DNA from: Rhodovulum kholense
Lineage (GTDB): Bacteria; Pseudomonadota; Alphaproteobacteria; Rhodobacterales; Rhodobacteraceae
Assembly: GCF_003053725.1 (NCBI RefSeq)
Contig: NZ_QAYC01000010.1
Coordinates: forward strand, 62,001-126,000
Length of the DNA: 64,000 nt
Reading direction: 5' to 3'
Positions 45,393 through 49,388 of this stretch are shown piece after piece. A program made the position numbers and the translations under genes. The notes beneath the pieces are model-generated. The model ran no database searches, was not told the DNA's origin, and saw only the letters and a list, made by a program, of their open reading frames with translations. Each line of letters starts with the position of its first letter. The stretch's first letter is position 1.

Positions 45393-47402
45393 CTACTCTG
45401 CCGCCATCGGTGCGGCGCGCCGGGCCTTGGCATTGGCCGACAGCTCGGCCATCAGCGCCGAGGCGCGGGCAATCGGGTTGGTCAGGTAGAAATCCTTGAC
45501 CGCGTAGCGGAACTCGGCCCGGGCGGGCTCGGAGACCGGCAGCGGCTGCCAGTGGTTCACGATCACCTCGTCGACCAGCGCCAGATCCGGCGCCGCCGCG
45601 ACCAGCTTGCGGCGCAGCTGCACCAGATCGTTGAAGGGCAGCGTCGCGCCCAGTTCGGCCGACAGCGCCCGCAGGATCGCCCAGTTTTCCTTGGCCTCGC
45701 CCGGCGGGAAGCCCGCGCGCAGCGCCATCTGCGGCCGCCCTTCGGTATTGACGAACAGCCCCGCCTCTTCGGTGTAGGCCGCGCCGGGCAGGATGATGTC
45801 GGCACGATGCGCGCCGCGGTCGCCATGGCTGCCCTGATAGATGACGAAGGGCCCCTCGCCGATCTCGACCTCGTCGGCACCCAGATTGTAGATGACCTCG
45901 GCGCCTTTCGTCGCGGCCTCGATCCCGCCCTCGGTGACGGCGCCCAGATCCAGCGCGCCGACCCGCGAGGCGGCGGTGTGCAGCACCAGAAGTCCCGCGC
46001 CCAGCCCGCCCGCCAGCGCCATCGCCTGGCTGAGGACGGCCGCGCCATCGACCTCGATCAGCGCGCCCTGCCCGACGATGACCAGCGCGCCTTCTGCCGG
46101 TTTCGCGGCTTTCGCCAGCTTCACCAGCGCCGCGCGGTCCGAGCCTTCCTCAATCACGTCATAGGTCAGATCGACGGCCGGGCCGACCCTATGCACGGCC
46201 GCGCCGTGCATCCAGGCCTTGCGGATGCGGGCGTTCAGCACCGGCGACTCGGCGCGGGGATTGGTGCTGATCAGATAGATCTGCCGGGCATGGTCGATAT
46301 CCTCGATGGCCGCGGTGCCGACATAGGCCGAGCGGTTGCCCGCAGGCAGCTTGGCCCCGTCGGTCCGGCATTCGACCGTGCCGCCCAGACCCTCGACCAG
46401 CGATTTCAGCGCGAAGATCGCCTCGGCCGGGGCCAGATCGCCGATGAGCCCGGTCACCTTGCGCCCGGTCATGGCGGCGGCGGCGGCGCGCAGCGCCTCG
46501 GGCCAGGTTGCGGGCCGAAGCTTGCCGTTCTCGCGGAGATAGGGCCGGTCGAGCCGCTGGCGTTTCAGCCCGTCCCAGACAAAGCGGGTCTTGTCCGAGA
46601 TCCATTCCTCGTTCACGCCGTCATGGTTGCGCGGCAGGATCCGCATCACCTCGCGGCCCTTGGTATCGACCCGGATGTTCGAACCGAGCGCGTCCATCAC
46701 GTCGATGGTTTCGGTCTTGGTCAGCTCCCAGGGCCGGGCGGTGAAGGCATAGGGTTTCGAGGTCAGCGCGCCCACGGGGCACAGGTCGATGATGTTGCCC
46801 TGCAACTCGCTGTCGAGCGTCTGGCCCAGATAGGAGGTGATCTCGGCATCCTCGCCGCGCCCGGTCTGGCCCATCTGGGTGATGCCCGCGACCTCGGTCG
46901 TGAAGCGCACGCAGCGGGTACAGGAGATGCAGCGGGTCATGCAGGTGCCGACCAGCGGTCCCAGATCGGGGTCGATCGAGGCGCGCTTGGGTTCGCGATA
47001 GCGGCTGAAATCGACGCCATAGGCCATCGCCTGGTCCTGCAGGTCGCATTCGCCGCCCTGATCGCAGATCGGGCAGTCGAGCGGGTGGTTGATCAGCAGG
47101 AACTCCATCACCCCCTCGCGGGCCTTCTTGACCATGGGCGAGTTGGTCTTGACGACCGGCGGCGCACCGTCGGGGCCGGGGCGCAGGTCCTTGACCTGCA
47201 TCGCGCAGGAGGCGGCGGGCTTCGGCGGGCCGCCGACGATCTCGACCAGACACATCCGGCAGTTCCCGGCGATGGACAGGCGTTCATGGTAGCAGAAGCG
47301 CGGGATCTCGATCCCGGCGACCTCGCAGGCCTGAAGCACCGTCATGGCCGGGTCGACCTCGATCTCTGTGCCGTCGATGATGATCTTGCGTAGCTGTGCC
47401 AT
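45393..47402 (-). CDS. nuoG: NADH-quinone oxidoreductase subunit G
   Basis: A 669-residue, Fe-S-rich subunit of the peripheral arm. N1b ligands lie in [15 protein letters not shown] plus a following Cys, the His-ligated N5 in [14 protein letters not shown], and N4 in CISCTRC plus CPVGAL. The C-terminal part is the catalytically inactive molybdopterin-enzyme-like domain. The ATG at 47402 starts [10 protein letters not shown], as in Paracoccus. A 162-base gap to the upstream DUF5333 gene shows no convincing gene. Confidence 0.97.
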
Positions 47403-47564: not shown

Positions 47565-48005
47565 CTAGCGCGCCCTCAGCAGCCGGCCGATTTCGGTCCG
47601 GGCCCTGATTTCGGCCAGACCGACCGGGCAATAGCTTTCGGGCTGGTCGCTCCGGACGCCCCGCGCCGCCAGCCAGTCGCGCGCGGCGCCCTCGACCCGC
47701 GCCTTCTCGGCCTTGTCCTCGACGAAGGCCCGGATCTCGGCATCCGAATAGCCAAGCCGCGATGCCCGCGATTTCAACCCGCGCATATAGCCATAGGCGG
47801 TCAGCATCCGCGCCTCGATCCGCGGGCATTTCTTGCGGATCATGTTGGCGGTCGCGATCACCTGCAGCCCCTCGACGATCCCGGCCTGGTCGCGAAGCGC
47901 CGGACGCGCCTCGGCCCCCTCGGCCGTGGCCGCGGCGGCAAGGGCAAGCGTCGCGGCAAGCGCCGCAGCCCGTCCTCGGGGCGATATGACCGCCCCCGCG
48001 ATCAC
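47565..48005 (-). CDS. DUF5333 family exported protein within the nuo operon
   Basis: A 146-residue protein of the DUF5333 type, often found in nuo operons of Rhodobacteraceae. An N-terminal hydrophobic signal (AAALAATLALAAAATAEGAEA) suggests export to the periplasm; the mature part is helical (KSRASRLGYSDAEIRAFVEDKAEKARV) with cysteines in RKKCPRIEARM and SYCPVG that could form a disulfide. It starts with GTG at 48005, overlapping the stop of the 28-residue microprotein (GTGA). Function is unknown. Confidence 0.82.
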   Translation of the reverse strand: MIAGAVISPRGRAAALAATLALAAAATAEGAEARPALRDQAGIVEGLQVIATANMIRKKCPRIEARMLTAYGYMRGLKSRASRLGYSDAEIRAFVEDKAEKARVEGAARDWLAARGVRSDQPESYCPVGLAEIRARTEIGRLLRAR

Positions 48006-48088
48006 GCCGCCGCCACCGCGCTGTCGCGCCCGATGGTCCGCGCCTCGAACTCCGCGCGGTCGGTGATGATCTTCCTGAGCTCGCTCAT
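48002..48088 (-). CDS. 28-residue microprotein resembling the NuoG N-terminus
   Basis: A short frame just behind nuoF: ATG at 48088, TGA at 48002-48004. A GGAG ribosome site formed by the last codons of nuoF lies seven bases before the ATG, and the stop overlaps the GTG of the DUF5333 gene, so it sits in a coupled chain. It begins MSELRKIITDRAEFEA; NuoG begins [16 protein letters not shown], nine of the first 15 residues being identical. The rest (RTIGRDSAVAAA) has no counterpart. It may be a leftover of a duplicated nuoG start or a functional peptide. Confidence 0.55.
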   Translation of the reverse strand: MSELRKIITDRAEFEARTIGRDSAVAAA

Positions 48089-48092
48089 CCGC

Positions 48093-49388
48093 CTACTCCG
48101 CCGCCAGGACGCCCGAACGCCCGGTCTTCTGCGACCGGATCCGATCCTCGATCTCGTCGCGGAAATGCCGGATCAGGCCCTGGATCGGCCAGGCGGCCGC
48201 GTCGCCGAGGGCGCAGATTGTGTGGCCCTCGACCTGCTTGGTGACATCGAACAGCATGTCGATCTCTTCGATCTCGGCTTCGCCCCTCACCAGACGGTCC
48301 ATCACCCGCATCATCCAGCCGGTGCCCTCGCGGCAGGGCGTGCACTGGCCGCAGCTTTCATGCTTGTAGAATTTCGCGAAGCGCCAGATCGCCTTGATGA
48401 TATCGGTCGACTGGTCCATCACGATGACCGCCGCGGTGCCGAGCCCCGAGCGCTGCTCGCGCAGCCAGTCGAAATCCATGATCGCATCCTCGCAGATGCT
48501 GGCAGGCAGAAGCGGCACCGAACAGCCGCCCGGGATCACCGCCTTGAGATTGTCCCAGCCGCCGCGCACGCCGCCGCAATGGCGGTCCAGCAACTCGCGC
48601 AGCCCGATCGACATGCTTTCCTCGACCACGCAGGGACGGTTCACATGGCCCGAGACGGCGAAAAGCTTGGTGCCCGCGTTGTTCGGCCGCCCGAAGGACG
48701 CGAACCAGTCGCCGCCCCGGCGCAGGATGGTCGGCACGACCGCGATGGATTCGACATTGTTGACCGTGGTCGGGCAGCCGTAAAGCCCCGAGCCCGCCGG
48801 GAAGGGCGGCTTCATCCGCGGCATGCCCTTCTTGCCCTCGAGGCTTTCGAGCAGGGCGGTTTCCTCGCCGCAGATATAGGCGCCGGCGCCGTGATGCAGG
48901 TACAGGTCGAAATCCCAGCCCGACTTGGCGGCATTGGCGCCCAGAAGCCCGGCGTCATAGGCCTCGTCGATGGCCGCCTGCAGCGCCTCGCGCTCGCGGA
49001 TATATTCGCCCCGGATGTAGATATAGGCGGCATGCGCGCCCATCGCGAAAGAGGCGATCAGCGCGCCCTCGATCAGCGTATGGGGGTCGTGCCGCATGAT
49101 TTCGCGGTCCTTGCAGGTGCCCGGCTCGGACTCGTCGGCGTTGATTACAAGGTAGTGCGGCCTTCCGTCGCTTTCCTTCGGCATGAAGGACCATTTAAGC
49201 CCGGTAGGGAAACCAGCCCCGCCACGGCCGCGCAAACCGGATTTCTTCATCTCGTCGATGATCCAGTCCCGGCCCTTGGCGATGACCTGAGCCGTGCCGT
49301 CCCAATGTCCCCGGGCGCGCGCGCCGGAGAGGCTGCGGTCGAACATCCCGTAGAGATTGGTAAAGATCCGGTCCTGATCGGTCAGCAT
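48093..49388 (-). CDS. nuoF: NADH-quinone oxidoreductase subunit F
   Basis: A 431-residue subunit that binds NADH, FMN and cluster N3. The nucleotide site [15 protein letters not shown], the FMN segment [16 protein letters not shown] and the N3 ligands [12 protein letters not shown] with the distant Cys in TICALGDAA are intact. The ATG at 49388 begins [14 protein letters not shown] as in related species. A perfect stem-loop lies in the 154-base gap before it. Confidence 0.97.

Follow-up and report, generated by a model that had tools for sequence, protein, structure and literature searches.

Introduction

The nuo/nqo operons of Rhodobacter and Paracoccus hold extra reading frames between their nuo genes. 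The locus described here lies in Rhodovulum kholense (contig NZ_QAYC01000010.1), within a stretch of 64,000 nucleotides that was analyzed as a whole and is called the window below. It is like those operons in that an extra frame, a DUF5333 gene, stands between nuo genes, and it differs from them in the 28-codon frame placed between nuoF and DUF5333, which is no conserved operon member.

The closest described process is homology-facilitated illegitimate recombination, in which one end of a fragment is homologous and the other is joined at a short match or none; it was reported for E. coli conjugation (PMC3240628) and put forward to explain displaced gene ends in Vibrio (PMC5361080). The present locus is similar to this process in that a native gene end appears to have been pushed behind one that came in, and a short word shared by the joined sequences marks the seam. 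It departs from it in that no donor was found, the homologous crossover could not be located and the event is known from sequence alone. The likeness to the 3' ends of the T6SS effectors of Vibrio cholerae lies in a conserved upstream part, proposed as anchor, and an old 3' part shifted downstream (PMC5361080); the present locus, by contrast, belongs to a respiratory operon, and what was left over is a fusion of 28 codons. We propose that the frame, which is shared with one congeneric genome (G212), is a nuoG-start::nuoF-end fusion scar left by a putative recombination event, a reading to which we give a probability of roughly 0.87.

Results

Gene order and translation signals

On the minus strand of the window the genes follow in the order nuoF (49388..48093), 28-codon frame (48088..48002), DUF5333 (48005..47565) and nuoG (47402..45393), with these features:

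48002..48088, minus strand: 28-codon frame, putative nuoG-start::nuoF-end fusion scar (open reading frame call; composite origin by model searches and ranks)
48050..48088, minus strand: putative nuoG-derived half, codons 1-13, matching the NuoG N-terminus (model searches, ranks, base comparison)
48002..48049, minus strand: putative nuoF-derived half, last 15 codons and stop, with its match in the NuoF C-terminus; the G212 copy is longer by 12 bases (weak for the own copy alone in the NuoF-tail model)
48093..49388, minus strand: nuoF, ending in ..GVLAAE as compared to ..SAVAAE in 14 scar-free relatives of the genus
48096..48099, minus strand: GGAG, a ribosome-site-like word inside the last two nuoF codons
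48095..48105, minus strand: 11-base stretch that aligns to both sides of an extra segment of about 400 bases (gene X) in G212
47565..48005, minus strand: DUF5333 gene, its GTG overlapping the TGA of the scar
45393..47402, minus strand: nuoG

The frame, found where a preliminary description made from the letters had placed it, encodes the 28-residue peptide MSELRKIITDRAEFEARTIGRDSAVAAA (48002..48088, minus strand). Its ATG lies 4 bases past the nuoF stop and 7 bases behind GGAG, and its TGA shares bases with the DUF5333 start GTG in the word GTGA (48005..48002); the ribosome-site word and the GTGA overlap noted earlier are thus both present. The DUF5333 gene was identified by Pfam PF17267 (E 9.3e-36), and searches with the frame gave no match above cut-off in Pfam and no match in NCBIfam. 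No literature on DUF5333 was found, and that on extra frames or insertions in nuo operons held nothing on such a scar. At three other places (G089:C120, G022:C182 and G105:C1) two DUF5333-like matches stand close together, possibly as tandem copies.

Likeness of the first half to the nuoG start

The NuoG-like N-terminus, which was the core of the preliminary description, was borne out: nine of the first 15 residues equal those of the NuoG start, and the codons align as well, with 33 of the first 45 bases matching nuoG of the window as compared to a median of 31 and a best of 36 over 103 nuoG starts. The fetched DNA holds 26,549 candidate starts; ranked by likeness to the first 15 residues, the top 56 for the own copy and the top 58 for the G212 copy all fitted the NuoG-start pattern, by which the labels in this ranking were assigned. 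With the first 10 residues only, the match loses its uniqueness, as a chance start in the window comes 37th (own) and 33rd (G212).

End models were built without the frame from 119 NuoF tails and 114 NuoG starts, and every open stretch in 119 nuoF-nuoG intervals was searched with them (80 named loci, 20 further, 16 of the genus and 3 others). The NuoG-start model matched the own frame at E 9.5e-4 and the G212 frame at 6.3e-3; its other matches were L092 at 3.4e-6, which is nuoG itself with its start missed by the automatic call, and two with E above 2.

Likeness of the second half to the nuoF end

The preliminary description overlooked that the second half of the frame matches the NuoF C-terminus (..GR.SAVAA). 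In the same 119 intervals the NuoF-tail model gave its best match in another genus (G125, 1.7e-21), followed by the G212 frame (6.2e-5), L008 (1.5), the own frame (1.9), and L067 and L117 (both above 4); taken alone the own frame is not significant in this model, standing behind a chance match at 1.5. With the last 45 bases the 12 best of 3,545 frame ends were all NuoF for both copies; when the own copy was ranked by its last 60 bases, NuoF tails shared the top 12 with a tied frame that crosses the nuoF end of L092 in a different phase. The own copy agrees with nuoF tails of the genus in only 19-29 of 36 bases, and in blastn its last 31 bases fall on the nuoF tail of G210 with 77% identity. 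The G212 frame, from GAG ATC GAG onward, matches nuoF tails in up to 48 of 60 bases (L141, L043, L036); the values are 37-48 of 60 for the 14 other genomes of the genus and 41 of 60 each for its own front nuoF and for nuoF of the window. The TGA of the G212 frame aligns with the native nuoF TGA of the relatives G210 and G204, and DUF5333 (GCGGTCATATCGCCC) lies at the same distance behind; stop and DUF5333 of the scar thus align with native nuoF of these relatives as a displaced native gene end downstream would. The proposed nuoF-end origin of the second half depends on the G212 copy and on this aligned stop. In G210 and G204 (loci L034 and L035, respectively) DUF5333 itself apparently starts with TTG, two bases past the nuoF stop, with a poor ribosome-site score in G204.

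Proposed composite origin

A model built from the two copies of the frame (own and G212) was searched over 394 genomes of the family from 393 genera, in which the genus was represented by the own genome and G200 and not by G212. Some match at E<=1, chance matches included, was obtained in 358 of the 394 genomes. Among the 150 matches listed, which were counted by hand, 83 covered positions 11-31 (NuoF end) and lay in frames of 60-620 residues, mostly 430-500; 56 covered positions 1-15, one of them 1-17 (NuoG start), in frames of 57-804 residues, mostly 670-730; 10 lay elsewhere, and a single one, in the own genome, extended over the full 1-32. At the nine loci of the best matches outside the own genome nuoF ends at the match in nine of nine, and the two matches in G200 sit on its nuoF end and its nuoG start; the remaining listed matches are assigned by the model positions that they cover. 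On the 80 named loci the same model gave 121 hits at E<=10, labelled as 64 NuoF ends, 37 NuoG starts and 20 other, at least three of the last (L076, L092, L102) being also nuoF or nuoG by position. Sixty column-shuffled models gave 5-54 hits on these loci, with a best E of 0.03 as compared to 3e-4 for the real model. The named loci had been fetched by nuoF, and therefore the search of the 394 genomes is the less biased of the two.

The resemblance of the first half to the nuoG start and of the second half to the nuoF end is, by these searches, well beyond chance. That the frame opened by chance, as short frames do in GC-rich DNA full of them, is accordingly given almost no weight by us: ranks and shuffled models speak against it, and both halves match the flanking genes in the right orientation and phase. 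The halves are short, only 13-20 codons, which counts against the scar reading. A relic of a copied nuoG 5' end, one of the two readings of the preliminary description, holds for about codons 1-13. A plain nuoG 5' duplication requires a nuoG match over the whole frame, whereas only positions 1-15 (in few cases 1-17) match nuoG and positions 11-31 match NuoF; the rest of the frame would thus be a copy of the nuoF 3' end, and the whole a fusion seam.

The seam word and the order of events

The word GAGATCGAG occurs in the same phase at three places, in nuoG of the window (codons 13-15), in the nuoF tail of the window and where the two halves of the G212 copy meet, and a fusion through it would therefore be in frame without further change. 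The scar of the window now reads GAGTTCGAG at this place. G210 and G204 have GAAATCGAG in nuoF, which differs from GAGATCGAG in one base, and the word of the resident gene at the time of the event is therefore not fixed by these relatives. The front nuoF ends in GVLAAE in both scar genomes and in SAVAAE in the 14 other genomes of the genus. The junction in front of the frame, GCGGCGGAG TAG GCGG ATG, resembles direct nuoF-nuoG junctions elsewhere in the family (GCGGCGGAG TAG GCTC ATG in L134 and GCGGCGGAG TAA GCG ATG in L105).

The same final order, nuoF - nuoG start::nuoF end - DUF5333 - nuoG, would also follow from a tandem duplication inside the genome, by which the segment from the nuoF end to the nuoG start was doubled via GAGATCGAG and most of the first copy, with DUF5333, was then lost, no foreign DNA being involved. 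The short shared word fits this course, as does the fact that the 33 of 45 bases shared between scar and own nuoG exceed the median of 103 nuoG starts. However, an extra deletion is needed, the nuoG half of the scar (MSELRK, CTC AGG) differs from the own nuoG (MAQLRK, CTA CGC), and the GVLAAE end is not of the genus type; we regard the duplication as unlikely. The differences in the nuoG half and in the nuoF end hint at DNA from outside, and relaxed selection or drift could explain either.

The order of events may also have been the reverse, with an ancestor in which nuoF stood directly before nuoG and a fragment [nuoF end - DUF5333 - nuoG] that was inserted by an anchor in nuoG, the first half of the scar being the old nuoG start. 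This course leads to the same structure, comes close to the preliminary description, and direct junctions do occur in the family (3 of 114 intervals are of 10 bases or fewer; L099, L105 and L134 have such junctions). DUF5333 is present in all 14 other genomes of the genus, however, and a prior loss would be required, which makes this order somewhat less probable still than the duplication. By the same 14 of 14 scar-free relatives, in which DUF5333 follows nuoF, the DUF5333 gene is, judged from gene order, older than the scar, and its insertion as the event accompanying the relic, as suggested earlier, is doubtful.

Distribution in the genus and selection on the peptide

All 16 genomes of the genus carry nuoF, and the frame is found in two of them, the own genome and G212, whose NuoF proteins are 98% identical; the named genome collection may omit records near the genome of the window. 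In the other 14, DUF5333 follows nuoF directly or past a spacer, and the interval gave no scar with either end model. Absence of the frame from close relatives that keep DUF5333, the observation named beforehand as one that would refute the preliminary description, is thus what 14 of the 16 genomes present. The G212 copy (MSEIRKIVTDSPEIEPRIEARTIGRASAVAAA, 32 codons) is longer by 12 bases, in frame. Between the two copies there are eight differences, six nonsynonymous and two synonymous, which gives dN 0.100 and dS 0.106 from few sites and one pair; for the neighbours dN and dS are 0.029 and 0.174 (DUF5333) and 0.007 and 0.132 (nuoG), and the contrast in selection between frame and DUF5333 is weak (p 0.046). 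The change between the two scar copies looks neutral, and the peptide sequence shows no sign of being preserved.

A functional microprotein that competes with NuoG or assists its assembly, the other reading of the preliminary description, could draw on the NuoG-like first 15 residues and the ribosome site. It is set against the lack of the frame in 14 of 16 genomes of the genus, the lack of any other full-length match among the 150 listed for 394 genomes, a dN close to dS with no purifying selection detectable in the one possible comparison, and a half that resembles a NuoF tail; we consider it very improbable, and as a protein the scar peptide probably does nothing.

Translation of the scar is plausible from its signals. 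The ribosome-site energy is -6.1 kcal/mol for the scar, with about 12% of random places reaching -6, and -5.1 for DUF5333, with about 24% of random places reaching -5; the DUF5333 site is within background and that of the scar only moderately good, and so these scores do not show DUF5333 to depend on coupling. A short leader cistron that passes ribosomes to DUF5333 by termination and reinitiation at GTGA, with the frame kept and its sequence free, would be compatible with a scar origin and is suggested by the GGAG site, the GTGA overlap and the sole length difference between the copies, which keeps the frame. An indel keeps the frame one time in three anyway, the two site scores give little distinction to either start, and only two copies are known. 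We put this role forward tentatively, as the less probable outcome.

Gene X and a parallel case in another genus

In G212 a gene for 126 residues, gene X, stands between nuoF and the frame. By eye it has a signal-peptide-like start (loci L033, L146 and L152 in G212, G046 and G408), and it gave no Pfam match above cut-off and no NCBIfam match. It also follows nuoF in G046 and G408, which belong to one other genus and are 2 of its 18 genomes. Gene X was matched in 4 of the 394 genomes of the family sample, in three of which no nuoF lies within the 10-12 kb fetched (matches without nuoF in the fetched DNA: G193, G367 and, partial, G010), and in 3 of 390 genomes of the order sample, one of these being G212. 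The X segment of G212 is flanked by an 11-base near-repeat that matches positions 48105..48095 of the window. We lean towards a later gain of X by G212, rather than a loss in the lineage of the window, because this repeat reads as a leftover nuoF end. As X may have come later, its presence in G046 and G408 does not settle whether foreign DNA came in.

In G125 (L165, G125:C10:66000-74000) nuoF is followed by a frame of 89 residues, membrane-like by eye, and then, about 600 bases after nuoF, by a duplicate nuoF tail within a frame of 58 residues; this would be an independent nuoF-tail duplication with cargo in another genus. The NuoF-tail model had a match in 376 of the 394 genomes searched and two matches in seven; in six of these the second match is distant or on a different contig, within frames of 459-599 residues, and only G125 has it locally. 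This search gave one match in the own genome and did not see the scar, which means that short scars are missed by it. The candidate G078 was rejected as a second scar case, its match being at a contig end. Across 114 loci of the family the nuoF-nuoG interval ranges from 3 to 3,374 bases.

Discussion

Here, a short frame between nuoF and DUF5333 was traced to two sources in the genes on either side. Following this, we propose that a fragment with a nuoF end joined to a nuoG start entered the ancestor of the genome of the window and of G212, that homology let its left side pair with the resident nuoF, and that its right side was joined via GAGATCGAG. The resident gene would thereby have received its present end from the fragment, and its native tail would have come to stand downstream, continuing the nuoG start in frame. 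The scar peptide may be translated and could couple translation to DUF5333 through the GGAG site and the overlapping stop, and gene X in G212 would be a later insertion or have been lost in the lineage of the window. The scar would be of a known kind, and its two sources are well supported; no donor of the nuoG half and no donor genome was found.

Between the two scar carriers dS is 0.305 in the 3' half of nuoF as compared to 0.069 in the 5' half. This rise separates the own genome from G212, both of which carry the scar, and is therefore not evidence of the founding crossover; it is probably due to later recombination, with a probably recombined tract at 48743-48096 of the window as compared to L153. 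As regards delivery of the fragment, the gene-transfer agents of Rhodobacter capsulatus carry random fragments of about 4.5 kb and bring about allelic replacement (PMC9690577), and the own genome has a gene-transfer-agent marker (Pfam GTA_TIM, E 5.9e-156). Such an agent would be a possible route.

In a wider reading, the nuoF end would be a recurrent landing place for cargo genes in Rhodobacteraceae, at which nuoF is made whole each time by the arriving end and its former tail is stranded; the leftover in the lineage of the window would then have become a short leader cistron by which the nuo operon is coupled to DUF5333. We offer this as speculation and think it improbable. Taken together, the apparent microprotein would be explained as a readable recombination seam, which is a warning that short frames whose halves match neighbouring genes may turn out to be junctions. 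The interval between nuoF and nuoG is unusually variable for a respiratory operon, and one genome of another genus has a further nuoF-tail copy; this core respiratory operon may therefore have a slot at which cargo is exchanged.
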